Shown: positions 5,896 to 21,754 of the stretch, in pieces
Layout of the letters: each line of letters opens with the position of its first letter
Position numbering within the stretch: the stretch's first letter is position 1
IMG/VR virus record: IMGVR_UViG_3300017783_005116
Location: 1 to 22,002 of that record
Length of the DNA: 22,002 nucleotides
DNA from: a virus
Direction: 5' to 3' (one strand)
Position numbers and translations under genes: made by a program
The notes under the pieces: generated by a model
Database searches by the model: none
Seen by the model: the letters and a program-made list of their open reading frames with translations, nothing else
What the model was told of the DNA's origin: nothing

Positions 5896-6654
5896 ATGAC
5901 AGACTTAGCAACTAAAAAACAAGAAATATTTAACTATATCTATACAGCCTTAGGTGGCGGCATGGTAGATGTCGAGCTTGATCCAGCACATTATGAGCAA
6001 GGATTAACAAAAGCACTGACTAAGTTTAGACAGCGTAGTGATAATTCAGTAGAAGAGTCATATATGTTTATGCCTACTGTAATTGATCAAAACACTTACA
6101 AACTACCAAATGAAGTTGTAGAAGTAAGAAGACTTTTCCGTAGATCTATTGGTTCACGTACTGGTGGAGGTGATGGCGGCACTTTGTTTGAGCCGTTCAA
6201 CATGGCATACACAAATACATATTTGCTTTCAAGTTCTAAAATGGGCGGCTTAGCAACATATGATTTATTTTCTCAGCACCAAGAATTAGTAGGACGTATG
6301 TTTGGTTCCTTTATTGAATTTAAATGGAATACACAAACAAAAAATCTAACCCTTTTACAACGCCCAAGAGCTGAAGAAGAACTTCTTCTTTATGTTTACA
6401 ATTACAGAGGCGATGAACAATTATTAGACGATTACCTTGCAGTACAGTGGTTAAAGGATTATGCATTAGCCGCATGTAAATTTATGTTAGGCGAAGCACG
6501 TTCAAAGTTTGCCACTATTGCAGGTCCACAAGGTGGTTCTACACTAAATGGTGACACACTAAAAGCAGAAGCAACTGCTGAAATGGAAAAGCTGGAAACA
6601 GAAGTTCAAATGGCAGTTCCAGGTGGCGTAGGCTACGGCTTTACAATCGGTTAA
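5896..6654 (+). CDS. gp13: Neck protein gp13 (head completion)
   Basis: This is a 252-residue homologue of T4 gp13, which binds the portal and completes the head with gp14. It starts MTDLATKKQEIFNYIYTALG and continues VDVELDPAHYEQGLTKAL, YKLPNEVVEVRRLFRR, LFEPFN, a Phe/Trp-rich centre, LLLYVYNYRGDEQLLDDYLAVQWLKDYALA and a Gly-rich end (VPGGVGYGFTIG), all familiar from marine T4-like gp13. A GGAGAAG ribosome site lies about 10 nt before the ATG and the late box GATAAATA lies 21 nt upstream. It is the only neck gene on the plus strand, split from gp14 and gp15 by the palindromic promoter. Confidence 0.85.
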   Translation: MTDLATKKQEIFNYIYTALGGGMVDVELDPAHYEQGLTKALTKFRQRSDNSVEESYMFMPTVIDQNTYKLPNEVVEVRRLFRRSIGSRTGGGDGGTLFEPFNMAYTNTYLLSSSKMGGLATYDLFSQHQELVGRMFGSFIEFKWNTQTKNLTLLQRPRAEEELLLYVYNYRGDEQLLDDYLAVQWLKDYALAACKFMLGEARSKFATIAGPQGGSTLNGDTLKAEATAEMEKLETEVQMAVPGGVGYGFTIG

Positions 6655-6663
6655 AAAAACTTC

Positions 6664-6692
6664 TTGACAACCTATACTTTTTGCGTTATAAT
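6664..6692 (+). promoter_or_regulatory. Consensus sigma-70 promoter for oxygenase and nucleotide kinase
   Basis: TTGACA (6664-6669), 17 nt, TATAAT (6687-6692): both boxes and the spacing are perfect. It lies just after the gp13 stop and drives the oxygenase-kinase pair, so these can be expressed by host polymerase before the late genes around them. Confidence 0.88.
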
Positions 6693-6721
6693 GTAGTTTA
6701 TAAAGTAAGAAAGTGACTCAC

Positions 6722-7372
6722 ATGTTTGATTATCAAGTACAACCTGTCTTTTCTACTCCTATTGTGAGTGTTGATATAGGCAAAGTAGATCCAATGACAT
6801 TAGCATGGATCAAGAACTTACGCTACGAACATAAGGCAGTAGGACAAACTGACGACGAAGAACATCTGCCGTTCAAAGAGCGCGGATTTAATATTATTAA
6901 TGCAAAACAATTACGTTTGCTAAGAAGTAATATTATGAAAGCAGTAGCTTGGTATTCATACGAGTTGTTAGATGTAACTACAGATGTAGAATTTGTTTTC
7001 ACAACAAGCTGGATCAATAGATTAGAAAAGGATGAAAATATAGATAGACATCCTCATACTAATAGTGTTATCTCAGGCATATATTACATTGACGTTACAC
7101 CAAATTCATCACCTATTACTTTTCATAAAAACAGGACACATTTAAGTACTTGGCCATTATCAACCAAACCTTTACAGGCAGGTAGACAATGGAATCAATA
7201 CAACACAGAACAATATACATACATGCCACAAAATGGATTGTGTATATTATTTCCAAGCCATTTGGAACATTCTGTAGAACATAGTACTGATGACAAGTAT
7301 AGATATGGACTTGCTTTTAATTTATTTGCACGTGGAAAACTTGGCGAAAACTCAGGAAGTATTACAATATGA
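6722..7372 (+). CDS. Putative 2OG-Fe(II) oxygenase
   Basis: The 216-residue protein resembles the short 2-oxoglutarate/iron dioxygenases common in marine T4-like phages. Visible features are TTSWINRL (94-101), RHPHTNSVISGIYYIDV with candidate iron ligands H110/H112, LFPSHLEHSV with H183, and KYRYGLAFNLF with R194 as the likely 2OG-binding residue. The substrate is unknown; such proteins may hydroxylate proteins, nucleic acids or small molecules. I prefer ATG 6722 over GTG 6713 because the protein then starts MFDYQVQPVFSTPI, typical of the family, although no strong ribosome site is seen for either. Its stop overlaps the next start (ATGA), so it is coupled to the kinase. It sits 30 nt after a perfect sigma-70 promoter. 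Confidence 0.78.
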   Translation: MFDYQVQPVFSTPIVSVDIGKVDPMTLAWIKNLRYEHKAVGQTDDEEHLPFKERGFNIINAKQLRLLRSNIMKAVAWYSYELLDVTTDVEFVFTTSWINRLEKDENIDRHPHTNSVISGIYYIDVTPNSSPITFHKNRTHLSTWPLSTKPLQAGRQWNQYNTEQYTYMPQNGLCILFPSHLEHSVEHSTDDKYRYGLAFNLFARGKLGENSGSITI

Positions 7373-7980
7373 TAATAGGCATTTGCGGTTTAATCGGAAG
7401 TGGTAAAGGTACAGTAGCAGACATTCTTGTAGAAGAACATAAATTTGAAAAAATAAGTTTTGCAGACAAACTTAAAGATGGCGTAGCAACAGTTTTTAAT
7501 TGGGACCGTTCTATGTTAGAAGGTGATACAAAAGAATCACGAGAATGGCGTGAAAAGGTTGACGAGTATTGGACTAAAGAAACAGGACGCACGATTACAC
7601 CAAGGCTTGTTTTACAAGAATTTGGTACAGATTGTATGCGTAATGGTTTTTATGATGGCATTTGGGTAAGTCTAACCAAACAACAACTATTAGCTAATCC
7701 TACAAAGAACTATGTTATACCAGATGTCCGTTTTGACAATGAAGCTGATATGATAAAATCAATAGGCGGATCAGTTTGGAGAGTACGCAGAGGCGGAGAT
7801 CCTGTTTGGTTTAGAATGTATCAAGACATTGGTGTAGAACCACAGGATGTTCATCCAAGTGAATGGAGATGGGCAAACGTAGAGTTTGATCAAATCATAG
7901 AAAATAATCACACTATAGATGATCTTAAAAATCTGGTACAAGGTCGCCTTGTTTCCATCGGACACCTTGTTTCTGCATAA
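7369..7980 (+). CDS. Deoxynucleoside monophosphate kinase (T4 gene 1-like)
   Basis: This 203-residue P-loop kinase would phosphorylate dNMPs to supply phage DNA synthesis. It has Walker A GLIGSGKGT (7-15), VADIL, ISFADKLKDGVATVF, TPRLVLQEFGTDCMRNGF, YVIPDVRFDNEADMIKSIGG with the VR.VR-type lid (VWRVRRGG) and a HPSEWRW motif, the arrangement seen in T4 dNMP kinase and its marine relatives. T4 gp1 is about 241 residues. It overlaps the oxygenase gene by 4 nt. Its last 56 nt overlap the end of the convergent HNH gene in antisense; the residues there (LVQGRLVSIGHLVSA) look less conserved and may owe their composition to the HNH frame. Confidence 0.8.
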   Translation: MIIGICGLIGSGKGTVADILVEEHKFEKISFADKLKDGVATVFNWDRSMLEGDTKESREWREKVDEYWTKETGRTITPRLVLQEFGTDCMRNGFYDGIWVSLTKQQLLANPTKNYVIPDVRFDNEADMIKSIGGSVWRVRRGGDPVWFRMYQDIGVEPQDVHPSEWRWANVEFDQIIENNHTIDDLKNLVQGRLVSIGHLVSA

Positions 7981-8260
7981 TTCGTTGACAATTTGCACAA
8001 ATTGTTTTTAAGTTATTAGGACGACAATTTTCTAAATCACCGTCTATGTGATATACGTTAAACTGTTCTTCATGTTTAGATTGGAAACCACATTTTTCGC
8101 ATTCGTTCTTTTTTTCGTATCCGCGTTGTTTCCATTTAGGTATGCCATGACCTATACCGTTACGTAGGCAAGTTTCACACATACTTCGATAGTATACTTT
8201 ATTCTTTTTCTTATAATTTATTGCGGCAGGTCTTTGACCGCATTTGCATAAAGGTCTCAT
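7925..8260 (-). CDS. HNH endonuclease-like zinc protein, conserved in marine T4-like phages
   Basis: The 111-residue protein has two zinc-site clusters. The first is CKC and CETC (C5, C7, C28, C31). The second frames an HNH-like centre: CEKC (C54, C57), VYHIDGD with H71, CRPNNLKT with N82/N83, and CANC (C88, C91). It ends GVRWKQGDLVPDF. I recognise this architecture from homologues in cyanophage-type genomes annotated as HNH endonucleases. It is a free-standing gene, possibly a homing-type nuclease domesticated at this site. It is minus-strand between plus-strand units, and overlaps the kinase gene's end by 56 nt. A GTAAATA box lies 4 nt before the ATG, and an AGGTGAGG sequence just upstream could be its ribosome site. 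Confidence 0.8.
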   Translation of the reverse strand: MRPLCKCGQRPAAINYKKKNKVYYRSMCETCLRNGIGHGIPKWKQRGYEKKNECEKCGFQSKHEEQFNVYHIDGDLENCRPNNLKTICANCQRIMQKQGVRWKQGDLVPDF

Positions 8261-8264
8261 ATTG

Positions 8265-8271
8265 TATTTAC
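8265..8271 (-). promoter_or_regulatory. Candidate late promoter box before the HNH gene
   Basis: The minus strand reads GTAAATA (8271-8265), then caat and the ATG at 8260. The spacing equals that of other boxes here, but the box is a weak variant and overlaps a possible Shine-Dalgarno region. Confidence 0.4.
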
Positions 8272-8327
8272 CTCACCTTTTTGGTCCCTTTTTCATACGT
8301 ATTTCCTACTGGAATTTGTTTGCTATG

Positions 8328-8335
8328 TATAAATA
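8328..8335 (+). promoter_or_regulatory. Late promoter of the sheath gene
   Basis: TATAAATA, identical to the T4 late consensus, lies 35 nt before the gp18 ATG. The leader contains AGGAG (8359-8363), well placed for gp18 translation. Confidence 0.85.
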
Positions 8336-8370
8336 CAAGTGATGGAACTCATTCTAACAGGAGATTTAAA

Positions 8371-11300
8371 ATGGCATTAGTATCACCAGGAGTAGAAGTC
8401 AATGTAATTGACGAATCATTCTACACCCCTGCGGCAGCTTCAACAGTCCCAATGATTTTTGTAGCTACTCAGGAAAACAAAACAAAAAGTTCTGGTACAG
8501 GTGTCGCACCAGGAACAATTAAAGCAAACGCAGGTAAGCCGTACTTGATTACAAGTCAAAGAGAATTAGGCGAAACATTTGGCGATGCAGTGTTCATAAG
8601 CGATGCAAACGGAAATATGGTTCATGCAGGAGAGCAAAACGAATACGGTTTGCAAACTGCATATTCAACATTGGGTATTTCAAATAGAGCATACGTAGTA
8701 CGTGCAGACATTGATTTAGCAAAATTAAATGCAAGTGCAACTGCGCCAGGAGGCGAGCCAGTTAACGGTGCATATTGGTTTGATACACAAACTTCAGGGT
8801 TTGGTATTTTAGAATGGAACGGTTCGGCAGCAACAGTAGTTGGCGGTCAATCTTTTGCTTCTCAAACACGCACAGTTATTACTGAGACAAGCGACATTAC
8901 AGCAAGTAAACCAAAAGAATCAATTGGTGCTATAGGTGAGTACGCTATCGACGCAACAACAACAATGAATAAATTGTTTTATAAATCTCCAGGTTATGGT
9001 GCATCGATTTCGGTTATCACAGCAAACGCAGGTAAATGGGTTCAAGTTGGATCAGCAGAGTGGAAACAAAGCTGGGCAAGCGTAAGAGGCACAGCGTCGA
9101 ATCCAACAATTACAGTTGGCGACGAATTAATTATTAACTCAACTACAGTTACAGCAACAGGTACAACTATCACTGCACTTGCTGGCGATATTAACACAGC
9201 GGCTATTGCAGGTATTAGTGCAAACGTAATTGACGGATCAATAGAAATTTATTCAAGTGGTGTTGATGTTGTCCTTAACAAAGGCAGCGGAGAATTACTT
9301 ACAGAATCAACTACTGGTTCAGCAACAGGTGCTTTAGGAATTACAGAAGGTACTTATAGTGCTCCAAGAGTTGCAGTTGCTCCACATACAAATATTCCAG
9401 GATACAAGGCAGGCGACACATCACCAGCTCCTACAGGAAGTATTTGGATTAAAACAACTGAACCAAATGGCGGCGCTAAACTAAGCGTAAAAGAGTACAA
9501 CACAGATACACAACTTTGGTCAACAATTACAACACCAATGTACAGCACACCAGAAGCGGCTCTTGTAGCACTTGATAAAGCTGGCGGTGGTGCAAACTTA
9601 GTGTTAGGAGATCTTTATGCAAAAGTAAATGCAAACGAGATAAGTCCAGCACTTGTTGATTATAAATTGTATAGACGTGCAAATACAGGCGCTACACAAA
9701 TTACAGGTTCAAAAGTTACAGGCGTAAGCGCAGGTACTTATGGATTTACAATGGAAGAAACAGTTGCAGGAAGTGCAACAAAAGTTTCAAAAACTATGTC
9801 AGTAACAACAACTGGTGCATCTTCAGACGCAGATGCAATTGCAGGTGTTATTAACGCTGCCGGATTTACAAATATTGTTGCATTAGTTAATAGTGCAAAT
9901 AAAGTTGTCATTAGCCATAAAATTGGAGGTGATATTCATATTACAGATACAGACAACGTACTAAGTGCAATCGGAATGGTTGCATATGATCCAAGCCTTG
10001 ATAACGCAGATGTTGCAACAGCAAACCTTTCAGTAGCACCAAGCGCATTATCAGCGGATTGGGTTGCAAGTAACTGGGCGGAACTTACTTACACAGCATC
10101 AAATGATGAGCCAACAAGCCTAACAGCAGATGGTGAAATTTGGTACAGTTCAGTAACTGACGAAGTTGACATTATGATACATGATGGAAGCACATGGGTA
10201 GGATACCAAAACTACAATGCGGCATATGCAGATACTGACCCAGCAGGTCCAATTGTTAGCGCAAGTGAACCAACAAAACAGTCAGATGCATCAACATTAG
10301 TAGATGGCGATCTTTGGATTAGCACAGCAAGTATTGATGATTATCCAGGCGTATACAGATGGAACGGTACTACTTCTAAGTGGGTATTGCTTGATAAAGC
10401 AGACCAGACTACAGAAAACGGCGTACTGTTTGCAGATGCACGTTGGTCAGATGCAGGTGCAAACTCAGCACAAGCTGAAATTGCAGATCTACTTACAAGT
10501 GATTACTTAGATCCAGATGCTCCAGATCCAGCACTATATCCAAAAGGTATGTTGCTTTGGAACACACGTAGAAGCGGATTTAATGTTAAGCGTTTTGAGC
10601 GCAATCACATTGATACAGCAGGCGACAACGGACGTTTCCAAGTAATAGGTGCAAGTGGTTCTTTAGAAGACCAATCAATGAGCGGCTACTATGAGCACAG
10701 ATGGGTAACAGATTCACCTAACAATGATGATGGTTCAGGTGCGTTTGGTAGAATTGCACAACGTAAGTCAGTTGTAAAAGCACTACAAGCAATGGTTAAC
10801 AGCAACCAAGATATACGTGACGAAGAGTCACGTCAGTTTAACTTAATGGCATGTCCAGGTTATCCAGAGCTAATCGGCGAAATGGTTACACTAAACACAG
10901 ACAGACGCTTAACAGCATTTGTTGTAGGTGATACACCATTTAGATTAACTCCAGATGCTACTTCATTAAATGAATGGGCAACAAACGTTAAACTTGCAGT
11001 TGAAGATAACGATGATGGCGCAGTATCTAAAGATGAATACTTAGGTATGTACTATCCAGCAGGCTTTACAAGTGATAACTTTGGTAACAATATTGTTGTT
11101 CCAGCGTCACACATGGCACTAAGAACAATTATACTAAACGACCAAGTTGCGTTTCCGTGGTTTGCACCAGCAGGTACAAGACGCGGTGGTGTTTCAAATG
11201 CTACAAGTTCAGGCTATGTAAATAGCGAAGGCGAATTTGTAAGTGTTGCATTAAACACTGGACAACGTGATACACTATACAGTAACCAAATAAACCCAAT

Positions 11301-11691
11301 TACGTTTATTAACGGTGCAGGTTTAGTTGTATTTGGTCAGAAAACAAGAGCAAGAAATGCAAGTGCATTAGATCGTGTTAACGTAGCACGTTTAACTGTG
11401 TACTTACGTGGACAGCTTGAGTTACTTGCAAGACCATACTTGTTTGAACCAAATGACAAGATTACACGTGATCAAATTAAGGCGGCAGCAGATGCATTGC
11501 TTCTTGAACTACAAGGTCTAAGAGCCATATATGACTTCTTAGCAGTATGTGATGAAAGTAATAATACTCCTGCAAGAATTGATAGAAACGAACTATACTT
11601 AGACGTTGCTATTGAGCCAGTTAAAGCAATTGAATTTATTTACATTCCGTTGCGTTTGAAAAACACAGGTGAGATTGCAGCCTTAGGTTAA
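8371..11691 (+). CDS. gp18: Contractile tail sheath protein gp18, enlarged
   Basis: The start at ATG 8371 gives MALVSPGVEVNVIDES, the usual sheath N-terminus, preceded by AGGAG and a late promoter. The open frame upstream is not needed. The protein forms the contractile outer tail tube. The C-terminal sheath domain is clear: GMLLWNTRRSGFNVKRF, QDIRDEESRQFNLMACPGYPEL, VPASHMALRTI and the end region FLAVCDESNNTPARIDRNELYLDVAIEPVKAIEFIYI (T4: CDETNNT...RIDRNEF). At 1106 residues it is much longer than T4 gp18 (659). The extra mass lies between about residues 130 and 690 and contains at least four related segments of the form G-x-[IL/Y]-W-x-x-[TS] followed by a W/D-N/D-G-x-x-W turn. It is probably a surface insertion. 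Confidence 0.95.
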   Translation: MALVSPGVEVNVIDESFYTPAAASTVPMIFVATQENKTKSSGTGVAPGTIKANAGKPYLITSQRELGETFGDAVFISDANGNMVHAGEQNEYGLQTAYSTLGISNRAYVVRADIDLAKLNASATAPGGEPVNGAYWFDTQTSGFGILEWNGSAATVVGGQSFASQTRTVITETSDITASKPKESIGAIGEYAIDATTTMNKLFYKSPGYGASISVITANAGKWVQVGSAEWKQSWASVRGTASNPTITVGDELIINSTTVTATGTTITALAGDINTAAIAGISANVIDGSIEIYSSGVDVVLNKGSGELLTESTTGSATGALGITEGTYSAPRVAVAPHTNIPGYKAGDTSPAPTGSIWIKTTEPNGGAKLSVKEYNTDTQLWSTITTPMYSTPEAALVALDKAGGGANLVLGDLYAKVNANEISPALVDYKLYRRANTGATQITGSKVTGVSAGTYGFTMEETVAGSATKVSKTMSVTTTGASSDADAIAGVINAAGFTNIVALVNSANKVVISHKIGGDIHITDTDNVLSAIGMVAYDPSLDNADVATANLSVAPSALSADWVASNWAELTYTASNDEPTSLTADGEIWYSSVTDEVDIMIHDGSTWVGYQNYNAAYADTDPAGPIVSASEPTKQSDASTLVDGDLWISTASIDDYPGVYRWNGTTSKWVLLDKADQTTENGVLFADARWSDAGANSAQAEIADLLTSDYLDPDAPDPALYPKGMLLWNTRRSGFNVKRFERNHIDTAGDNGRFQVIGASGSLEDQSMSGYYEHRWVTDSPNNDDGSGAFGRIAQRKSVVKALQAMVNSNQDIRDEESRQFNLMACPGYPELIGEMVTLNTDRRLTAFVVGDTPFRLTPDATSLNEWATNVKLAVEDNDDGAVSKDEYLGMYYPAGFTSDNFGNNIVVPASHMALRTIILNDQVAFPWFAPAGTRRGGVSNATSSGYVNSEGEFVSVALNTGQRDTLYSNQINPITFINGAGLVVFGQKTRARNASALDRVNVARLTVYLRGQLELLARPYLFEPNDKITRDQIKAAADALLLELQGLRAIYDFLAVCDESNNTPARIDRNELYLDVAIEPVKAIEFIYIPLRLKNTGEIAALG
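8767..10443 (+). repeat. Repeated Trp-containing module inside the sheath insertion
   Basis: Related protein segments recur: GAYWFDTQTSGF..ILEWNG (near 8767), GSIWIKTTEPN..VKEYNTDTQLW (near 9436), GEIWYSSVTDE..IMIHDGSTWVG (near 10132) and GDLWISTASIDD..VYRWNGTTSKWVLLD (near 10306). The conserved C-terminal segment GMLLWNTRRSGFNVKRF (near 10540) has the same form. The similarity is at protein level; I see no long DNA identity. Confidence 0.6.
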
Positions 11692-11692
11692 A

Positions 11693-11735
11693 AACTACGT
11701 AGTTAATGAGTGGTTGAAATATACCACTCAATTAA
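11693..11735 (+). other. Palindrome and stem-loop between sheath and tube genes
   Basis: AACTACGTAGTT (11693-11704) is a perfect palindrome. It is followed by a stem of TGAGTGGT (11707-11714) with ACCACTCA (11723-11730), extended by TTAA/TTAA after one bulged A. No U-run follows, so it is not a standard terminator. It could protect the upstream mRNA end or mark processing. Confidence 0.6.
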
Positions 11736-11736
11736 C

Positions 11737-11744
11737 GATAAATA
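11737..11744 (+). promoter_or_regulatory. Late promoter of the tube gene
   Basis: GATAAATA lies 21 nt before the gp19 ATG, with AGGAGA in the leader at 11755-11760. It follows the stem-loop between gp18 and gp19. Confidence 0.8.
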
Positions 11745-11765
11745 TTAATGTAACAGGAGAACATT

Positions 11766-12404
11766 ATGCCAATATCAACATTACAAAGAATATCTGTACC
11801 AACAGCAGATGGCGGTGGCACTAACAGTGCATTGCTTATGCCTAAGTTACAGTATCGCTTTAGAGTCCTGTTTGACAATTTTGGAGGCGACGGTGGCGCA
11901 GATGGCGTTAGAGAGATTACAAGACAAATTGTCGACGTAACAAGACCTAATGTTAGTTTTGAGCAAATAACACTGGATGCTTACAATTCACGTACCTATC
12001 TTGCTGGTAAGCATACATGGGAACCAATTACAGTTACAATACGTGAAGATGTAAACAACAACGTACAAAAAATTGTTGGACAGCAACTTCAAAGACAGTT
12101 TGACTTTTATGAGCAAGCAAGCGCAGACAGCGGCGGATCATATAAGTTCCAAATGGGAATTGAAATACTCGACGGCGGTAACGGTAACACTACAGGCGGA
12201 TCAGCTAATATTGACAGATTCCAAATGGTAGGTTGTTATCTTGAAAGTGTAAACTACAATACTTTAGCGTATGCTACAAGTGATCAAGTTACAATTTCAT
12301 TAACAGTCCGCTACGATAACGCGATACAGTTTGGCCCAGGTGAGTCATTTGACGGCATCGGCGAATCAGTAACACGTGGTATATCAGACTTTACAGTAGC
12401 GTAA
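11766..12404 (+). CDS. gp19: Tail tube protein gp19
   Basis: The 212-residue protein polymerises into the inner tail tube. The family pattern is clear: LMPKLQYRFRVLFDNFG at 24-40, VTRPNVSFEQITLDAYNS, YLAGKHTWEPITVTIREDVNN, and near the end YNTLAYATSDQVTISLTVRYDNAIQ. T4 gp19 has 163 residues; a Gly-rich loop (GIEILDGGNGNTTGGSANI) and N-terminal additions account for the difference. It has its own late promoter and a good AGGAGA site, and a strong terminator follows, so it can form a separate abundant transcript, as expected for a major virion protein. Confidence 0.95.
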   Translation: MPISTLQRISVPTADGGGTNSALLMPKLQYRFRVLFDNFGGDGGADGVREITRQIVDVTRPNVSFEQITLDAYNSRTYLAGKHTWEPITVTIREDVNNNVQKIVGQQLQRQFDFYEQASADSGGSYKFQMGIEILDGGNGNTTGGSANIDRFQMVGCYLESVNYNTLAYATSDQVTISLTVRYDNAIQFGPGESFDGIGESVTRGISDFTVA

Positions 12405-12423
12405 AGTTAGATAAAAGGGGTTT

Positions 12424-12452
12424 AAAAGCGGGGCTTAGGTCCCGCTTTTTTT
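12424..12452 (+). terminator. Rho-independent terminator after the tube gene
   Basis: A 9-bp stem AAAAGCGGG (12424-12432) pairs with CCCGCTTTT (12441-12449) around the loop gcttaggt, followed by a T-run to 12452. It lies 20 nt after the gp19 stop and is the clearest terminator in the window. Confidence 0.92.
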
Positions 12453-12474
12453 ATCTACGTAGTTTATTAGGGTT

Positions 12475-12482
12475 GATAAATA
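12475..12482 (+). promoter_or_regulatory. Late promoter abutting the 409-residue gene
   Basis: GATAAATA is followed by only 4 nt before the ATG at 12487. It restarts transcription just after the gp19 terminator. No Shine-Dalgarno site lies at usable distance, so the mRNA is probably leaderless. Confidence 0.78.
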
Positions 12483-12486
12483 CTGT

Positions 12487-13716
12487 ATGGACAGGTTTAA
12501 TTCTTATTCACGACAAGCGGCAGGTAGTAACACGCATTTACGTGATCAACAACACGCATTACGCTTTTACTCAGAAAGCAGTCATCTCTTTACCCCAAAG
12601 GTAAAGTTTTTATATCATGCAACTTTTCAAGTAAATGATCAAGCTGATGCACCTAACACTAAAAAGTTTAGAGAAGAACTAAGTGTACTGGCAGCCAATG
12701 TTGCACTACCTAAGTTTACAGCTTCTGTGGATACAAAACAACAGTACAACAGAAAAAAGCATTACCAAACAAGAATAGACTACAGCGAAGTTAGTTTTAG
12801 TTTTTACGATGACAACTTAGGCGCTTCACGTAAGCTACTCGAAGAGTATTATAGACATTATAGTTCAGACGGTAATACAGCAGTAACTACTGAAAACAAA
12901 TTTAATACAAGAGACAAATATTTTACAGATGGTTCTTTACCAGCTTATGGTTTAGACACAGGAGTAACATATCCATTTTTTGATTACATAACAGTATATC
13001 AATTATCACAAGGCGAGTGGGCAAGTTATAGATTAGTAAATCCTATCTTAACAGCATGGGGCCATGATAGTATGGATTATGCAGATGGCGGCACATCTAT
13101 GATGAACGATATCTCAATTGCATATGAGTCTGTTATTTACGATCACGGCGAGTTAGCAGAAAACGGAGAACCACAAGGCTTTGCAAGTGCGGCATCACGT
13201 TATGATATAACACCGAGTCCATACGGAAAAGTTGACACATCTTCAGCAGGAGATATACACAAAATTGTTTCTAATAGACCACGACTTATATCACGGGATA
13301 CACAACGTAAGATAAGTCCTTTGTTAAGAGCATTTAATAGTGATCAAGATCGTCCTACTGCAACAACAGATATACAAAACTTGCCAGGAGGTTTAGGTAG
13401 TACAAGTATTCCTAATCCTAACACAAGATCCAACAGAACACCATCTGGTAGAATAACGCCCCCTGCGGCAAGATCAAGAGATACATCAAGATTAGGTAGT
13501 AGTATAGCTAACATACCAGGCGGCCAGGATAGTTTAGTTGCAAGATCAATTAATGCAGGCAGTATTCCAGGTGTCAATTATAATGCTTATAATGCTTTAC
13601 CAACTGCCGAAGCAAATGCTATAAAAAATGAAGTACTCAATAGATTAGACAACGGAGATAGTAAAGAAGTAAATATTGCTAACGATATTATTAATAATAC
13701 AGGAACATTTACATAA
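12487..13716 (+). CDS. Tail-tube-like virion protein, possible gp54-type tube initiator
   Basis: The first 250 residues look like a tail-tube fold: LFTPKVKFLYHATFQVND, LAANVALPKFTASVDTKQQYNRK, YSEVSFSFYDDNLGASRKLLEEYYRHY and ISIAYESVIYDHG, the same order of features as in gp19 and T4 gp54 (the baseplate tail-tube initiator, 320 residues). The remaining 160 residues are a disordered-looking region rich in Arg, Ser, Asn and Pro, with many DT/SR-type repeats (ARSRDTSRLG), then a short helical end. The assignment to the gp54 role is inference; a second tube protein or neck component is also possible. It begins a long plus-strand late unit and its stop overlaps the next start (TAATG). Confidence 0.6.
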   Translation: MDRFNSYSRQAAGSNTHLRDQQHALRFYSESSHLFTPKVKFLYHATFQVNDQADAPNTKKFREELSVLAANVALPKFTASVDTKQQYNRKKHYQTRIDYSEVSFSFYDDNLGASRKLLEEYYRHYSSDGNTAVTTENKFNTRDKYFTDGSLPAYGLDTGVTYPFFDYITVYQLSQGEWASYRLVNPILTAWGHDSMDYADGGTSMMNDISIAYESVIYDHGELAENGEPQGFASAASRYDITPSPYGKVDTSSAGDIHKIVSNRPRLISRDTQRKISPLLRAFNSDQDRPTATTDIQNLPGGLGSTSIPNPNTRSNRTPSGRITPPAARSRDTSRLGSSIANIPGGQDSLVARSINAGSIPGVNYNAYNALPTAEANAIKNEVLNRLDNGDSKEVNIANDIINNTGTFT

Positions 13717-14048
13717 TGGCAGTCTCAACAGAAAAATATTTTAACGAATACTTCAAAACACCTATCAACTTTACACCTAATGAAGTAGATAGCGTTATTG
13801 CATATTTTTTAAAACGTGGTTTTGAAAAACAAGCCGCAGTAAATATTTCAAGCACACTTTTGCAACAAGCAGACATAGATGGAGTAAATATATTCCAATT
13901 GCTTGATACACTTAAAGGTGTTACAGACGTTCAACTTAACAACGTGATTGCACAAATACTAAACCTAAATAGACCAAAGTCAAGCAAAATAGGTTTTAGA
14001 ACAACACCTTTAACACAGCTATTTGATCAAAGAAACATAATAATCTAA
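13716..14048 (+). CDS. Small conserved late protein of unknown function
   Basis: The 110-residue protein is not recognised with certainty. It is mainly helical: YFNEYFKTPINFTPNEVDSVIAYFLKRGFEKQAAVNISSTLL, then DGVNIFQLLDTLKGV and LNNVIAQILNLNR. It ends with a basic tail (RPKSSKIGFRTT) and no Cys or membrane segment. It is joined by one-base TAATG overlaps to the genes on both sides, so it is made together with the tube-like protein and gp4, suggesting a small virion or assembly protein. AGGAAC upstream is a modest ribosome site. Confidence 0.75.
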   Translation: MAVSTEKYFNEYFKTPINFTPNEVDSVIAYFLKRGFEKQAAVNISSTLLQQADIDGVNIFQLLDTLKGVTDVQLNNVIAQILNLNRPKSSKIGFRTTPLTQLFDQRNIII

Positions 14049-14392
14049 TGCCACGCTTTGCTCAGGGAAAGTTCAATCCAAAAAACCCTGAAAAGTATAT
14101 GGGTAATAGAACGCCTACATATAGATCGGGATGGGAATTTACATTTATGAAATTCTGTGACGAGCATCCTGCTGTATCTAAATGGGCAAGTGAAGCAATT
14201 AAAATACCATATAGAAATCCGCTTACAGGCAAACATACTATATATGTGCCAGACTTTTTTATTGTATATGCTACACAAAAAGGTAAGCAACGTGTAGAGC
14301 TAATAGAAGTAAAACCTTCTAATCAAGCAGTCAAAGAACGTTTAGGCCGTAGTAAACATAATCAAGCGGCTTGGATAGTTAACCAAGCATAA
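14048..14392 (+). CDS. gp4: Head completion nuclease-like protein gp4, truncated by an in-frame TAA
   Basis: The N-terminal 114 residues match T4 gp4 (about 150 residues), a head-completion protein with a TnsA-like endonuclease fold: FNPKNPEKYMGN, TYRSGWEFTFMKFCDEHP with E30, VPDFFIVY with D69, and VELIEVKP with E87 and K89, the PD-(D/E)xK core. The reading frame then meets TAA at 14390-14392. The same frame continues without a break to 14491 with 32 more codons matching the expected end of the family. One A-to-T change in an AAA Lys codon would explain the stop. The catalytic residues are before the stop, so the short form could keep part of its function. It overlaps the previous stop as TAATG. 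Confidence 0.85.
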   Translation: MPRFAQGKFNPKNPEKYMGNRTPTYRSGWEFTFMKFCDEHPAVSKWASEAIKIPYRNPLTGKHTIYVPDFFIVYATQKGKQRVELIEVKPSNQAVKERLGRSKHNQAAWIVNQA

Positions 14393-14491
14393 TGGGAAGC
14401 CGCAAGAGCATACTGTAAACAAAATGGAATATTTTTTAGAATAGTTACTGAAGAAGATATATTCCATACTGGCGGAAAGAAGAGACGCTAA
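14393..14491 (+). pseudogene. Separated 3' part of gp4 after the in-frame stop
   Basis: In frame with gp4, this stretch reads WEAARAYCKQNG, then RIVTEEDIF and a basic end GGKKRR before a TAA at 14489-14491. Gp4 homologues characteristically continue KWEAA...FRIVTE.DIF, so this is coding sequence, not spacer. No start codon or ribosome site would let it be translated alone. Confidence 0.85.
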
Positions 14492-14496
14492 TATTT

Positions 14497-14504
14497 GATA
14501 AATA
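14497..14504 (+). promoter_or_regulatory. Late promoter of the small terminase gene
   Basis: GATAAATA lies 26 nt before the ATG at 14531. The leader holds only a weak ribosome site (ATGGAAC). Confidence 0.75.
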
Positions 14505-14530
14505 ATAGTAGCAGTTAATGGAACATTACA

Positions 14531-15031
14531 ATGACCAAAAAATTAGAAGATCTACTTGACTTACCTGATTCTAAAAAAATGATAGAAGAAGCTGAAGCAC
14601 AAGAAGTAGAACAAACAAAACACGAAATAGAACGTGAAGAAACATTCCGTGATATAGCAGAGTTTGATAAAATAACTGCGGCATTGCCCGCTGTTAAAGG
14701 CTTAGGCGAATTAGCAGACAACGAATTAAATGAAGTTGCATCTAAAGCAATGAGTGCATATGATGATTTAATGGATCTTGGTATGAACGTAGAATCACGT
14801 TATGCAAGTAGAGTATTTGAAGTTGCTGGCGGCATGCTAAAAACATCACTTGATGCTAAAACAGCTAAACTTGATAAAAAATTAAAAATGATTGAGCTTC
14901 AACTTAAAAAAGAGAAGATGGACAAGGACAATAGTGACGGTAGTGACTCTATGATAGAAGGTCAAGGATATGTTGTTACTGATAGAAATAGTCTATTAGA
15001 GAAGCTAAAAGGTCTTGATAAAGATAAATAA
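14531..15031 (+). CDS. gp16: Terminase small subunit gp16
   Basis: At 166 residues, almost identical in length to T4 gp16 (164), this protein would recognise DNA and regulate the large terminase during packaging. It starts with an acidic helix (KLEDLLDLPDSKKM), as T4 gp16 does, followed by a coiled-coil-rich centre: ELNEVASKAMSAYDDLMDLG, SRYASRVFEVAGGMLKTS and LDKKLKMIELQLKKEKM. The segment ...AYEVA..L...T matches small terminases of marine T4-like phages. The end, VVTDRNSLLEKLKGL, corresponds to the segment around VFMGSPTELMD in T4. It lies three genes upstream of the large terminase, not adjacent to it as in T4. Confidence 0.8.
   Translation: MTKKLEDLLDLPDSKKMIEEAEAQEVEQTKHEIEREETFRDIAEFDKITAALPAVKGLGELADNELNEVASKAMSAYDDLMDLGMNVESRYASRVFEVAGGMLKTSLDAKTAKLDKKLKMIELQLKKEKMDKDNSDGSDSMIEGQGYVVTDRNSLLEKLKGLDKDK
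15023..15030 (+). promoter_or_regulatory. Late promoter of the 185-residue gene
   Basis: GATAAATA overlaps the end of gp16, including its stop region, and lies 21 nt before the ATG at 15052. AGGAAC (15040-15045) is in the leader. Confidence 0.75.
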
Positions 15032-15051
15032 TACAGTATAGGAACAATCAT

Positions 15052-15609
15052 ATGAGAAAATTTACTGACATACTTACTGAATCCAAAAAAATATACCAAT
15101 TTCATATTGGTGTAGCAGGAGAACTTCCTGAGAATTTTGAAGATAAGTTAGAACAATCATTAAAAAAGTTTGCTTTAGAAAATATATCAGCAGGCAAAAA
15201 GACTCCTATACAAGAAAGACCTTTGGATTTTCCACAATTAAAAAACATGGAAGTAACATATTGGGAAGCTGATGTAGTATATCCTACAACTCCGCAAGTG
15301 TTACAAGCATATATAGGCGAGTGCTGTACTATTGATCAAGCATACGTTATCGTTAGAAATATAAACGATCCAAGAGAAGAATACCAAGAAATAAAAGATA
15401 ATGAACCATACGAGTCGTTACTCAATACCGAAGAGATGGTATCAGAAGACGGCCAACCAATGGCAGGCGAAAGCAGAGTAATGGAATTACTCAAAGAGCT
15501 GGAGAAAGCACGTGGTGAGAGAGACATTGACATTGCAGACAGTGCTCCAATAGGCGATTCAAAAGATATCGATATGGTCGAAAATACAAAATCGGTTATA
15601 GGAGGCTGA
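15052..15609 (+). CDS. Late protein with capsid-targeting-like N-terminus
   Basis: I do not recognise a defined family for this 185-residue protein. It begins MRKFTDILTESKK, resembling the short signal (MKTYQEFI.E type) that sends T4 internal proteins into the prohead and is cut by the gp21 protease; LTE would be a fitting cleavage site. The centre alternates strands and helices (YQFHIGVAGELPENFEDKLEQSLKKF, MEVTYWEADVVYPTTPQVLQAYIGE, QAYVIVRNINDPREEY), and the end is acidic. There are two adjacent Cys at 87-88 (GECC) and no membrane segment. It is followed after 4 nt by the next gene, whose GGAGG site overlaps its last codons. A virion or core protein is plausible. Confidence 0.65.
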   Translation: MRKFTDILTESKKIYQFHIGVAGELPENFEDKLEQSLKKFALENISAGKKTPIQERPLDFPQLKNMEVTYWEADVVYPTTPQVLQAYIGECCTIDQAYVIVRNINDPREEYQEIKDNEPYESLLNTEEMVSEDGQPMAGESRVMELLKELEKARGERDIDIADSAPIGDSKDIDMVENTKSVIGG

Positions 15610-15613
15610 TATT

Positions 15614-16753
15614 ATGGATATGAAAAAAATATTAGAAAACATGGATCAAGCCGCAGCCGGTGAAAAACCAGCCGCAGGCAAGGGTAATGTAAACGACATG
15701 AAAACTATTTTAGAGTCAATTCAAGCAGTAGAAGAATGTGGACCAATGGTTGACGAAGGACCTATGCCTACAATGCCTACATCGATGCCACCCAAAGATG
15801 ATGGCAGTCCGGTATCAATGAACGTGTCAATTAATGCACGTGGTAAAGATCATGTAGCTGACCTAATTGACATGATGAAAAATGCAGGCGTTGGAGGAGC
15901 AAAAGAAATTGAACCTACAGACATGCCTATAAGTTTGCCTACACCAAAAGATATGGACATGCTTGATTTGCCAATGGACATGGATGGTCCAGACGATATG
16001 AACGATCTTAAGCCAGGCATACAAAAAGAACCATGTAAAAAATGTGGTAAAGTACATTTAGGAAATTCAAGTTGCGCCGGTCACGAAGATATCGATGTCG
16101 ACGAAGGCGGAATGAAAGATGAGCTCATTCAAGCAATGGAAAAGATTGCCGCTGACGATAGTGGAGAGTTGCTATATAAAGCACTAAGCAAAGGTGTAAT
16201 GGGTCCAGAAATACAAAAATATCTACAAGATATGTACGATGATGTAGCACGTGAAAATGGACTACACCCAGATGACGACCACGATGATATAGAACAAAAA
16301 ATGTGGGATCAAATCGAAGCAGACTACGGAATAGGCGAAGGTTACGACAACGACTATAAAGAAGATTATGCAAACGAACCTGATCCACAGTATGGAACTT
16401 TAGATGATGTAATTCCAGATGGTAACGATCTAAACAGAAAGAAAAAGTCTTACAAAGCTACAGCAGGCGGCGACAATCCAATTAATACAGAAGAAGTTAA
16501 CAGCATTAGAGAACGCTTGTTTAAAGCACTTGCAGAAAAAATGGATCCTGTAGGTAAAGAAGATGATGACGTAAACAACGATGGTAAAAAAGATAAGACA
16601 GATGATTATCTAAAAAACCGCAGAGAAAAAGTTGCAAAAGCTATTAACAAAGGCAAAGGCGAAAAAGAAAGCATTGAAGAAAGTGATTGTCCGAAATGCG
16701 GCAAAGCTGGTAAAAAGAAGTTAATGGCTTGTTCAAGTTGCGGATGTAGCTAA
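15614..16753 (+). CDS. Acidic structural-type protein with two zinc ribbons and an EF-hand-like loop
   Basis: This 379-residue protein has no single recognised family. In order: helices MKKILENMDQAAAG and MKTILESIQAVEEC; a Met/Pro/Asp-rich linker (40-135); a CxxC...C..H zinc site (C141, C144, C154, H157); a helical region (165-250); KKKSYKATAGGDNPINTEE followed by IRERLFKALAEKM; an EF-hand-like loop D319-N321-D323-G-K325-D327-D330; a basic helix DYLKNRREKVAKAINKG; and a C-terminal zinc ribbon (C359, C362, C373, C376, C378). The last motifs are familiar from virion proteins of marine T4-like phages. Its GGAGG site is strong. It is probably a virion or packaging-associated protein; binding of zinc or calcium is inference. 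Confidence 0.7.
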   Translation: MDMKKILENMDQAAAGEKPAAGKGNVNDMKTILESIQAVEECGPMVDEGPMPTMPTSMPPKDDGSPVSMNVSINARGKDHVADLIDMMKNAGVGGAKEIEPTDMPISLPTPKDMDMLDLPMDMDGPDDMNDLKPGIQKEPCKKCGKVHLGNSSCAGHEDIDVDEGGMKDELIQAMEKIAADDSGELLYKALSKGVMGPEIQKYLQDMYDDVARENGLHPDDDHDDIEQKMWDQIEADYGIGEGYDNDYKEDYANEPDPQYGTLDDVIPDGNDLNRKKKSYKATAGGDNPINTEEVNSIRERLFKALAEKMDPVGKEDDDVNNDGKKDKTDDYLKNRREKVAKAINKGKGEKESIEESDCPKCGKAGKKKLMACSSCGCS

Positions 16754-16765
16754 AAGGAAGTTATA

Positions 16766-17002
16766 ATGACTGATGAAGAAATTGCACACATTTTAAAACA
16801 AGAGCGCGAAGCTGGCGGCGGCGTTATTATGAAAGATGGTTTTCTAAAAATAGAAGAGCAACTTGCTCCACAGCCAGATGTAGACTTAGAGCGTGTAATT
16901 AAAGTATGGAACGAATGGATCCTTGGTCCAGACGATGCTCCTGCTAATACATTTACTACTCGTACTACTATGCGTCAGTATGATATGGACCACACTCAAT
17001 AA
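16766..17002 (+). CDS. Small acidic protein before terL, unknown function
   Basis: The 78-residue protein starts MTDEEIAHILKQEREAGGG and contains MKDGFLKIEEQL and VDLERVIKVWNEWILG, then a Thr-rich end. It is not recognised. AAGGAAG stands 8 nt before its ATG, 12 nt after the previous stop, so it is in the same transcript. The terL promoter follows it by 19 nt. It is probably a true gene because of the good ribosome site and tight packing. Confidence 0.7.
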   Translation: MTDEEIAHILKQEREAGGGVIMKDGFLKIEEQLAPQPDVDLERVIKVWNEWILGPDDAPANTFTTRTTMRQYDMDHTQ

Positions 17003-17021
17003 CACACATTGAAGTGCGCGG

Positions 17022-17028
17022 TTAAATA
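17022..17028 (+). promoter_or_regulatory. Late promoter abutting terL
   Basis: TTAAATA, preceded by GG at 17020-17021 and followed by cgtac and the ATG at 17034. The 5-nt spacing equals that of gp14 and the 629-residue gene. There is no clear Shine-Dalgarno site. Confidence 0.6.
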
Positions 17029-17033
17029 CGTAC

Positions 17034-18614
17034 ATGAGCAAAAGTTTAGATGGCGTATTAACTAAAAAAGCCAACACCAGAGAAACATTTACAGAAGAAC
17101 AAATACAGGATCTGCAATTTTGCATGGATCCTGAATTAGGCTATCTGTATTTTGCAAAGAAGTTTGCGTACATTCAACACCCTGTACAAGGCAAACTATT
17201 ATTTGATCCTTTCACATACCAGTTAGGGTTAATGGAAAGTTATCACAAATATAGATTTAATATAAACATGATGCCAAGGCAAACAGGTAAAACTACCTGT
17301 GCGGCAATATACTTAACTTGGTATGCAATGTTCAACCCAGATCAAACTATACTAATTGCGGCACACAAGTACACTGGTGCGCAAGAGATTATGCAACGTA
17401 TTAGATACGTATATGAAATGTGTCCTGATCATATTAGAGCAGGTGTAACATCATACAACAAAGGTAGTATAGAGTTTGAGAATGGATCACGTATTGCTTC
17501 ACAAACTACAACAGGCAACACAGGGCGTGGTATGTCTATATCATTACTATACTGTGATGAGTTTGCATTTGTGATGCCTAACATTGCCGAAGAATTTTGG
17601 ACTTCGATATCACCTACACTTGCTACAGGTGGTCGTGCTATTATTACAAGCACACCTAACTCAGACGAAGATACATTTGCTACTATATGGAAGCAAGCAG
17701 AAGATAAATTTGATGCTAACGGAAATGAACAAGATGTTGGTATAAACGGCTTTCATAGTTTTATAGCAGAATGGCATGAGCATCCTGATAGGGATGACAA
17801 ATGGAAAGCAGACGAAATAGGACGTATTGGTGAAGAGAAGTTTAGACGTGAATACGGTTGTGAATTTCTTGTATTTGACGAAACACTTATTAATAGTATT
17901 AAGTTAGCCGCTATGGAAGGATCAACACCTTTATTGAATATGGGTCAAACACGTTGGTATAAAAAACCTACAAGTCAATATACATATTGTGTATCGCTTG
18001 ATCCCTCAATGGGTACAGGAGGCGATTATAGTGCAATACAAGTATTTGAATTGCCTACATACGAACAAGTAGCAGAATGGCGACACAATCAAACAGCTAT
18101 ACCAGGACAAATTAGAATACTTGCTGACATATGTAAGTATATAGAACAGGAAACAAATCATCCTGCTGGTATATACTGGAGTGTAGAAAATAATGGATTA
18201 GGTGAAGCGGCACTAATTGTTATACAAGACTTTGGCGAAGAAAACATACCGGGATTATTTGTAAGTGAACCTATACGCAAAGGACATGTGCGTAAATTTA
18301 GAAAAGGCTTTAACACTACACATAGTACAAAAGTTACAGCATGTAGTAGATTAAAAACAATGGTAGAAAATGATAAAATGTCTATCAAATCAAAAGTTCT
18401 TATAGGTGAGCTTAAAAACTTTATTGCAACCGGATCAAGTTATCAAGCAAAATCTGGTGCAACAGATGATTTAATAAGTGCTACATTATTATCCTTGCGT
18501 ATGATGGAAGTGCTTAAAGATTGGGATCCGAGAGTGTATAATACATTCAATCAAGCAGAAGATATAGAAGATTACGAAGCACCTATGCCTATCTTCATTA
18601 GCAGTAACTATTGA
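17034..18614 (+). CDS. gp17: Terminase large subunit gp17 (packaging ATPase and nuclease)
   Basis: The 526-residue packaging motor has all key motifs. The ATPase has Walker A PRQTGKTT (81-88), Walker B LLYCDE (171-176, with D175 and E176) and the coupling motif TSTPN (205-209). The nuclease domain has D323 in SLDPSMGTGGD, E385 in WSVENNG and D478/D479 in GATDDLISA, the RNase H-like acidic triad. T4 gp17 has 610 residues, so this is compact but complete. No intron or intein is seen. The start has no ribosome site but lies 5 nt after a late box, so leaderless translation is likely. Its stop (TGA, 18612-18614) overlaps the next gene's late promoter. Confidence 0.97.
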   Translation: MSKSLDGVLTKKANTRETFTEEQIQDLQFCMDPELGYLYFAKKFAYIQHPVQGKLLFDPFTYQLGLMESYHKYRFNINMMPRQTGKTTCAAIYLTWYAMFNPDQTILIAAHKYTGAQEIMQRIRYVYEMCPDHIRAGVTSYNKGSIEFENGSRIASQTTTGNTGRGMSISLLYCDEFAFVMPNIAEEFWTSISPTLATGGRAIITSTPNSDEDTFATIWKQAEDKFDANGNEQDVGINGFHSFIAEWHEHPDRDDKWKADEIGRIGEEKFRREYGCEFLVFDETLINSIKLAAMEGSTPLLNMGQTRWYKKPTSQYTYCVSLDPSMGTGGDYSAIQVFELPTYEQVAEWRHNQTAIPGQIRILADICKYIEQETNHPAGIYWSVENNGLGEAALIVIQDFGEENIPGLFVSEPIRKGHVRKFRKGFNTTHSTKVTACSRLKTMVENDKMSIKSKVLIGELKNFIATGSSYQAKSGATDDLISATLLSLRMMEVLKDWDPRVYNTFNQAEDIEDYEAPMPIFISSNY

Positions 18615-18620
18615 TAAATA
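18613..18620 (+). promoter_or_regulatory. Late promoter overlapping the terL stop
   Basis: GATAAATA shares two bases with the terL stop and ends 5 nt before ATG 18626. No ribosome site is present between them. Confidence 0.78.
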
Positions 18621-18625
18621 CTAAT

Positions 18626-20515
18626 ATGCAGAATATACAAAAGATAAGCACAGATTTATTTAATAAACTACGTGGCAGATTTGACCAAATTACAATCGGC
18701 GACGAAAGCGGCACTGTCACAAATACACCTGACAATGCAAGATTTTTTGATTTTGCATATACCGAAGGAAAAAAAGAATTAGGAAAAGTTAGTGTAAGTA
18801 TAAATGAAGAAGATAAACTAACTGTAATATTTTCAAAAGACTTTATTACAGCAGAAGATTCATTTACACAAAAGAATTGGTATAACTTTCTTAAAGAATT
18901 ACGTCAATTTGCCAAAAAAAGAATGTTAGAATTTGACGTAAGAGACATTAACAAATCCAATTTAACTAAAAGAGATTACAAATTTTTAGCAAAGCAGTCT
19001 GGGGACGATAACATGAACGAATCTAAGATGTATGGCACATCTCGTGTAAGCTATCAAAATGTTGATGAAGCACGTATTGTAGTAAAACATACAGAAAATA
19101 TTAATCAAGAATTAAACAATAGAACACAAAAGATTGGTTCTATTTACATTGAAAGCAATGACGGAGAACGCTTTAAGTATCCATACAAACATTTGAATGG
19201 TGCAAGAGCAATGGCACGTCATGTAGCAGAAGGCGGTAAACCTTACGATGACTTTGGTAAACATATTACAAGCCTATCTGAAGAACTTTCTAAACTTAAA
19301 AAGTTTACTTCTTACATGGGTCGTTCAGCAGTAATGGCAGAAAGCCTTGCAGAATATACAGACGTTGTAAAAGGCCGTATTAAAACGGTAAAGAAAACAA
19401 TAGAAAGTTTACAAAAAAAGAAAAACTACACAGAGGCATTTTCATCATTTGAATCCCCAGTTCTTGAAGATGTGCCAAGTGACGTTGCTGAAAATTGGAT
19501 TGATCAACTTACTGTAAGACAGTTTAACGAAGAATTAAAAGATGTATTTCCATATATCTATAAGTTAGTAAGTGAAGCAACAAAAGCAACAGAATTAGGT
19601 CCGGATGATTTAGTAGATGAATCAGCACTAATGGCTTACGCAGGCAAAAAGAAGCACGGCGCAGAATATATGAAAAAAGCCGCACAGGCAGGACGCGAAG
19701 GTGCAAGTCAAGAAGAATTAGGCCGACTAAAAGACAAGTATAGTAAAGCTGAAAAGACTCCAGAAGAAATTCAAATAGAAACAGCATTTGAAAAAATGAT
19801 GGGTCAGTTTTCAGAAGCCGGTGAAGAAGAAGAACACGAAACCGGATTTGAATTCATAGGTGATGACGGTGAACCAGCATACGGTCAACTATTATATACG
19901 GTTGTAAATGGTGAAGTAGATCCTAAATCATTAAGAGGTGAAACTGATGAATCAGATCCAAGGTTTGCAACTCATAAAGTTGATTCTGAGTTTGCAACAA
20001 TGATGGTTGCACCCGGAGGTGATGATCACGAATCTGCACTTAATTATGCTCAAGTGGACTACAAAGAAAAACAAGCCGAAAATGAATCAGTATGTTCAGA
20101 GTGCGGCAACCCAAGTTACACAACATTACCAGAAGAAAAGCAAAAAGGCGTAGACGGCAAAGTATGCTGGAAAGGCTACAAGCGTATGGGCACCAAGAAA
20201 AAAGGTGGCAAGACTGTAGACAACTGTGTAAAGATTAAAGATGATGTCGAAATGGACGAAAAAGAACAAAAGACACCATTAGGCGAGTTCATACTAAGTT
20301 ACTTTGATAGAGAACAAGGCGCATTTCCAAAAGGCGAAACAGCAGTTCTTACAATGGTAGAAAAAGATTATGGCGAGCGGTTCATAGAACCTGCAAAGGC
20401 ATTTATAGAACAAATACAAGCAACGTACGAAGAAATCCAAATGCGTACACAACCACAGCAAATGGAAGTCGATACAGAGTTTGACAGAATGAGAGAGTTA
20501 GCTGGTTTAAGATAA
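18626..20515 (+). CDS. Large virion-type protein with zinc-ribbon motif
   Basis: The ATG at 18626 gives MQNIQKISTDLFNKLRGRF and 629 residues. A frame with a TTG start at 18611 exists but would lie within the late promoter. It is not assigned to a named T4 gene. In order: a folded-looking N-terminal domain (1-125); an internal ESKMYGTSRVSYQNVDEARIVV segment; a helical coiled region (210-265); VDQ/LTVRQFNEELKDVFPYIYKL; the helical module GKKKHGAEYMKKAAQAGREG ... EELGRLKDKYSKAEK (340-376); Cys-containing VCSECGN (C490, C493) with CWKGYKRMGTKKKGGKTVDNC (C514, C534); FILSYFDREQGAFPKGETAVL; and the end RMRELAGLR. These motifs recur in virion proteins of marine T4-like phages. It is probably structural. 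Confidence 0.75.
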   Translation: MQNIQKISTDLFNKLRGRFDQITIGDESGTVTNTPDNARFFDFAYTEGKKELGKVSVSINEEDKLTVIFSKDFITAEDSFTQKNWYNFLKELRQFAKKRMLEFDVRDINKSNLTKRDYKFLAKQSGDDNMNESKMYGTSRVSYQNVDEARIVVKHTENINQELNNRTQKIGSIYIESNDGERFKYPYKHLNGARAMARHVAEGGKPYDDFGKHITSLSEELSKLKKFTSYMGRSAVMAESLAEYTDVVKGRIKTVKKTIESLQKKKNYTEAFSSFESPVLEDVPSDVAENWIDQLTVRQFNEELKDVFPYIYKLVSEATKATELGPDDLVDESALMAYAGKKKHGAEYMKKAAQAGREGASQEELGRLKDKYSKAEKTPEEIQIETAFEKMMGQFSEAGEEEEHETGFEFIGDDGEPAYGQLLYTVVNGEVDPKSLRGETDESDPRFATHKVDSEFATMMVAPGGDDHESALNYAQVDYKEKQAENESVCSECGNPSYTTLPEEKQKGVDGKVCWKGYKRMGTKKKGGKTVDNCVKIKDDVEMDEKEQKTPLGEFILSYFDREQGAFPKGETAVLTMVEKDYGERFIEPAKAFIEQIQATYEEIQMRTQPQQMEVDTEFDRMRELAGLR

Positions 20516-20540
20516 TCATCTAACTCCTTTAAGTTTTTTT
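20495..20540 (+). terminator. Possible weak terminator after the 629-residue gene
   Basis: GAGTTAG (20495-20501) can pair with CTAACTC (20520-20526), and seven T's follow at 20534-20540. The loop is long and the stem overlaps the coding end, so the call is tentative. Confidence 0.3.
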
Positions 20541-20561
20541 GTCTTTTCTTTAAAAAAAGAC

Positions 20562-20590
20562 TTGACAATGTTTGTAAACGATAGTATTAT
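20562..20590 (+). promoter_or_regulatory. Near-consensus sigma-70 promoter of gp32
   Basis: TTGACA (20562-20567), 17 nt, TATTAT (20585-20590; one mismatch). It would start a leader of about 60 nt that ends in a strong AGGAGG site (20642-20647). It separates replication genes from the late block. Confidence 0.85.
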
Positions 20591-20655
20591 ATATACTGTG
20601 CTACAAACAAATAAGGCACAAAGCACATAGGCATAACATATAGGAGGCACAAACT

Positions 20656-21651
20656 ATGGCATCATTAGCAGAAATCCGAGCAAAGCTCAAGGAACAAGAA
20701 GCCAACACTGGCGGAAACAGAGGTCCACAAGGACCCAATCCAATTTACCCATTTTGGAATATGCAAGAAGGACAGAGTTCAACTCTGAGATTCCTTCCTG
20801 ATGGAGACGCAGACAATACTTTCTTTTGGAAAGAACGTTTGATGATCAAACTTCCATTTAGTGGAGTAAAAGGGGACACAGGTTCTCGTCCAGTACAAGT
20901 ACAAGTACCTTGTATGGAAATGTACGGCGATAGCTGTTCAATTTTACAAGAAGTACGTGGTTGGTTTAAAGATCCATCATTAGAAGATATGGGTCGTAAA
21001 TATTGGAAGAAGCGTTCATACGTATTCCAAGGTTTTGTAACGGAAAACCCACTTGCCGATGATCAAGCACCTGAGAATCCAATCAGACGCTTTATTATTG
21101 GTCCACAAATCTTCCAGATCATTAAGCAGGCGCTTATGGATCCAGACATGGAAGAACTACCAACAGATTATACTGCTGGTGTAGACTTCCGTCTTAACAA
21201 AACAAGTAAAGGCGGTTACGCAGACTATTCAACATCAAACTGGGCTCGTAGAGAGCGTCCATTAAGTGATGAAGAAATGTCAGCAATCAACACACATGGT
21301 TTGTTTAACCTAAATGACTTCCTTCCAAAGAAGCCAGACGAAACTGCAATTAAAGTAATGCAGGAGATGTTTGAAGCATCTGTAGATGGCGAAGTATATG
21401 ATCCAGATCGTTGGAGCAACTACTTCCGTCCAGCAGGGATGTCACAAGCAACAGGTGATCCTAACAAAGCACCTGCTCCAGCGGCACCAACTGCAACTGC
21501 TCCGGCAGAACCAACTCCAGCACCAGAAGCGGCACCAGCGGCTCCTGTAGCAGAAACAGCACCAGCGGCACCAGCGGCTGAAGCGGCACCTGCAACTGGC
21601 GGTGATGCAAATGACATTCTTGCAATGATCAGAGCACGTCAAGGACAGTAA
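20656..21651 (+). CDS. gp32: Single-stranded DNA-binding protein gp32
   Basis: This is the 331-residue cyanophage-type gp32, which coats ssDNA during replication and recombination. It starts MASLAEIRAKLKEQEA (the cooperative N-terminal region), then NPIYPFWNMQEGQSSTLRFLPDGD, KERLMIKLPF, VPCMEMYGDSC (C86, C94), RKYWKKRSYVFQGFV, IGPQIFQIIKQAL and GVDFRLNKTSKGGYADYSTS, the OB-fold and partner region shared with marine gp32 proteins. The T4 zinc site has three Cys and one His; only two Cys are obvious here. Residues 271-314 are an Ala/Pro linker and the end is DANDILAMIRARQGQ, not the Asp-rich tail of T4. The start is fixed by AGGAGG 8 nt upstream. Confidence 0.93.
   Translation: MASLAEIRAKLKEQEANTGGNRGPQGPNPIYPFWNMQEGQSSTLRFLPDGDADNTFFWKERLMIKLPFSGVKGDTGSRPVQVQVPCMEMYGDSCSILQEVRGWFKDPSLEDMGRKYWKKRSYVFQGFVTENPLADDQAPENPIRRFIIGPQIFQIIKQALMDPDMEELPTDYTAGVDFRLNKTSKGGYADYSTSNWARRERPLSDEEMSAINTHGLFNLNDFLPKKPDETAIKVMQEMFEASVDGEVYDPDRWSNYFRPAGMSQATGDPNKAPAPAAPTATAPAEPTPAPEAAPAAPVAETAPAAPAAEAAPATGGDANDILAMIRARQGQ
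21466..21597 (+). repeat. Ala/Pro-rich low-complexity linker in gp32
   Basis: GCA, GCG, CCA and ACT codons dominate 44 residues, with imperfect repeats such as gcaccagcggc. The local GC is higher than around it, and the antisense frame therefore also stays open. Confidence 0.85.
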
Positions 21652-21657
21652 AACAAT

Positions 21658-21741
21658 ATGACAGCTATTGGCGAAACCGAAGTAGAGATTCACGGTTTAC
21701 CTGTCAAAACTTCAAAAGTTAATAGCTGTCACGCTTTTTAG
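21658..21741 (+). CDS. Tiny ORF between gp32 and uvsX, uncertain
   Basis: ATG 21658 to TAG 21741 encodes 27 residues (MTAIGETEVEIHGLPVKTSK, then VNSCHAF). The upstream ribosome site is weak (AAGGA, 12 nt away). Inverted-repeat arms at both ends make an RNA element an equal alternative. No family is recognised. Confidence 0.35.
   Translation: MTAIGETEVEIHGLPVKTSKVNSCHAF
21659..21731 (+). other. Inverted repeat between gp32 and uvsX
   Basis: TGACAGCTATT (21659-21669) is the exact reverse complement of AATAGCTGTCA (21721-21731). A nested pair, AAACCG (21674-21679) and CGGTTT (21693-21698), sits in the loop. It could fold as a branched RNA that separates gp32 and uvsX expression. Confidence 0.65.
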
Positions 21742-21754
21742 ATAGGAGAAAAAT

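Follow-up and report, generated by a model that had tools for sequence, protein, structure and literature searches.

A gp4-type head-completion gene in a T4-like phage is interrupted by an in-frame TAA; a 99.9%-identical sibling contig and all further relatives examined lack this stop. The gene lies in a ~22-kb linear IMG/VR-type virus record (22,002 nucleotides, the whole of which was analysed and is referred to here as the window). Because neither the near-identical sibling nor any other relative checked carries the stop, we consider it most probably a single-base consensus error in the window contig, introduced by sequencing, amplification or low-coverage assembly, and a technical cause, as opposed to a mutation in the sampled virus, appears the most likely origin. 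One wrong base at position 14390 of the contig consensus (A to T) would suffice to give TAA from AAA, and the phage itself would then most likely possess an ordinary, intact 147-residue gp4-type head-completion nuclease with lysine at position 115.

Gene identity and the interrupted reading frame

The gp4 gene belongs to a block of T4-type structural and packaging genes that includes those for the tail tube, the terminase large subunit and an ssDNA-binding protein; a head-tail adaptor is also encoded in the window. Its frame opens with an ATG at 14048, meets the TAA at 14390-14392, continues through 32 sense codons (14393-14488) and closes with a terminal TAA (14489-14491); the coordinates of the frame and of its single internal stop had been reported exactly in the initial annotation. 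The features of this locus are as follows.

14048..14491, + strand: gp4-type head-completion (head closure) nuclease gene; 147 codons with the stop at codon 115 counted; assigned from profile matches and the intact copy in sibling contig L247
14390..14392, + strand: in-frame TAA in place of Lys115; private to the window record, as judged from the sequence and its relatives
14048..14392, + strand: 114-residue product expected if the stop is real; D69, E87 and K89 kept, half of helix 103-125 and strand 129-133 lost
14393..14491, + strand: normal C-terminus, 32 undamaged codons and terminal TAA; identical to L247

When the stop is read through, residues 4-142 of the protein match positions 3-145 of the 148 in the phrog_218 "head closure" profile (E 2.1e-43), and residues 40-135 match PF08722 (TnsA-like N; E 1.3e-22), in agreement with the gp4 head-completion identity proposed at the outset. 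The part preceding the stop gives clearly weaker scores on its own (E 6.9e-32 and 1.2e-12, respectively), which indicates genuine homology, as opposed to a chance extension, for the segment past the stop. The rise in the family match upon read-through thus bears out the earlier view that the 32 codons past the stop encode the expected C-terminus. The PD-(D/E)xK catalytic motif is present as VPD (D69) and E87-V-K89, invariant in a 56-sequence alignment, and both elements are located N-terminal of codon 115, as had also been recognized.

Via the intact sibling L247, the window gene is placed in the T4 gp4 family (PHROG 218), which it resembles in its profile, in D69 and E87-x-K89, and in the T4-type gene block. 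It differs in one respect: the window record alone has TAA for Lys115, and among the features used to delimit the family, an uninterrupted frame beyond residue 114 is lacking in this record only. In T4, gp4 is required for infectious heads. Our literature searches yielded general statements only on T4 gene 4 and nothing specific on assembly errors.

Comparison with sibling contigs

A single sibling contig, L247 (IMGVR_UViG_3300048026_000322), spans the stop codon; it matches window positions 13162-22002 and is ~99.9% identical to the window up to ~21748. Between 13162 and 21740, the two sequences differ at five bases, four of which are synonymous third-position changes (13353, 13383, 13458 and 16693). 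The fifth is 14390, the first base of the affected codon, which is A in L247 and restores AAA (Lys), the residue anticipated in the initial annotation. The gp4 reading frame of L247 is accordingly open (887-1330, 147 residues). A second sibling, L293, covers window positions 6444-13407 and shows eight differences from it, all synonymous and two of them common to L247.

Taken together, the window, L247 and L293 display ten synonymous sites, no missense change and one nonsense change (14390) over ~15.3 kb (6444-21740). If substitutions fell at random in these genes, ~21% would be expected to be synonymous and 4.8% nonsense, and the chance of ten out of ten being synonymous is ~2e-7. The excess of synonymous sites and the lack of missense changes imply that the differences other than the stop are true polymorphism under strong purifying selection. 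Judged by these substitutions, the stop is the single outlier among the sibling differences, and a nonsense codon at residue 115 would be a misfit with the selection against amino-acid change seen elsewhere. Two siblings were thus enough to reveal the stop as private and out of keeping with selection on the rest of the genome; more generally, sibling contigs should be consulted before a lone premature stop in a metagenomic phage contig is given a biological reading. What speaks against a consensus error is that the window contig is not generally error-rich, since nearly all other sibling differences look like true polymorphism, and suspect bases thus amount to no more than about one per 15 kb.

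Conservation of the codon among gp4 relatives

We further inspected the codon in more distant gp4 genes. The 80 nearest IMG/VR relatives, selected solely on sequence upstream of the stop, carry AAA (55) or AAG (25) at this site and a stop in none (0/80). Lysine was likewise found in all 19 gp4-covering loci out of 20 picked via the neighbouring gene, as well as in all three loci from genome contigs. The pattern TTAACCAAGCANAATGGGAAGCC, in which the first codon base is left open, occurs in 38 contigs, with AAA at every occurrence. Corresponding pattern scans for gp4 with TAA or TAG at the stop site returned 21 and 4 loci, respectively, and none of these 25 is gp4. The residues around K115 are also invariant in the 56-row alignment, in part by construction, as many of its rows derive from a pattern that fixes those codons; the conservation of Lys115 stated here is therefore based on the upstream-selected relatives and the open-base pattern. 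Among cultured phages, the alignment spans 80% or more of the 147-residue protein in 2460 of the 2484 matching records. By these sequence comparisons, a natural short form is absent from the collections covered (IMG/VR and cultured phages).

Broken gp4 copies do exist among IMG/VR contigs, a point in favour of a consensus error. An example is found at 4301-4738 of L295 (IMGVR_UViG_3300016651_000012), where the N-terminal part of the gene is scrambled and contains three stops; L295 looks like a low-quality contig.

Predicted fold and consequences of truncation

The structure predicted for the intact gp4 of L247 (mean pLDDT 87.8) features a helix at residues 103-125, followed by a strand at residues 129-133. 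Structure comparison ranks TnsA first (Foldseek E 2.9e-5; VIA Z 10.4 over 120 residues, rmsd 3.2), and the TnsA endonuclease N-terminal domain (PF08722; PDB 1f1z, 1t0f) is also the best Pfam match of the window protein. A sequence search of the PDB with gp4 gave chance-level matches only. TnsA differs in acting as an endonuclease in transposition and in possessing a second domain; sequence identity is 17-18%, and the window offers no transposon context. T4 gp4 had earlier been proposed to belong to the PD-(D/E)XK superfamily, with TnsA and T7 endonuclease I as its nearest members (PMC1189080).

In the predicted model, a stop at codon 115 would split helix 103-125 mid-way and delete strand 129-133. 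Although the truncated product would retain D69, E87 and K89, the domain would probably not fold, and the protein would probably be dead. Reinitiation at the ATG at 14392-14394, which overlaps the stop, was considered and rejected, as that frame stops after eight codons and cannot yield the C-terminus.

Alternative explanations for the stop

The initial annotation had left three options, namely a recent event, a sequencing error or read-through; our analysis retains the first two and finds no support for the third. A real, very recent nonsense mutation, present either in a defective genome or as a null allele kept briefly through complementation by intact siblings in the same cell, is unlikely, albeit the most serious competitor of a consensus error. 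The stop is present in the sequence as given, the frame past it is undamaged, and the real-looking polymorphism at the other sibling differences indicates a generally good contig. Set against this are the lysine in all relatives checked, the absence of missense changes among the siblings over ~15 kb and the part of the predicted fold core that truncation would cost. Moreover, a null allele of an essential virion gene should be rare at mutation-selection balance and hence unlikely to reach the consensus.

A real stop that is read through or suppressed, giving full-length gp4 at a reduced level, is very improbable. Its sole advantage is the undamaged frame beyond the stop, which matches L247 exactly. 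However, 14 of the 21 other genes counted in the window use TAA as their regular stop codon (TGA in 5, TAG in 2), and no tRNA genes were found within the 22-kb window, which also counts against suppression. Read-through cassettes are normally conserved, whereas this stop is conserved in no relative and is replaced by a sense codon (AAA) in L247; in addition, a U directly after UAA does not create a leaky context. We give similarly little credence to a real stop combined with a functional gp4 of 114 residues or with a little full-length protein made by read-through, with complementation in co-infected cells. Least probable of all is a natural short gp4 ending at residue 114, which would keep the PD-(D/E)xK residues N-terminal of the stop, but no relative ends at that position, the downstream codons fit both the family profile and L247, and the lost helix half and strand belong to the predicted fold.

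Other features of the window

Beyond ~21748, 36 sites (35 mismatches and one gap) within the final 254 bases separate the window from L247 (region 21741-22002). This divergence sets in immediately ahead of a RecA/UvsX-like gene at 21755, which is an open reading frame in both versions, and either reflects recombination between strains or marks a chimeric end of a contig. Two further features lie on the minus strand.

7925-8260, - strand: HNH-endonuclease-like ORF; weak match under the Pfam cut-off (E 2.9e-4)
409-2799, - strand: sugar-metabolism genes encoding a cupin, an NAD-dependent epimerase and a PfkB kinase with a cytidylyltransferase domain

The HNH-endonuclease-like ORF is flanked by the dNMP kinase and tail sheath genes, lies on the strand opposite to them and overlaps the 3' end of the kinase gene. 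The sugar-metabolism genes resemble those for ADP-heptose synthesis enzymes and adjoin phage virion genes.
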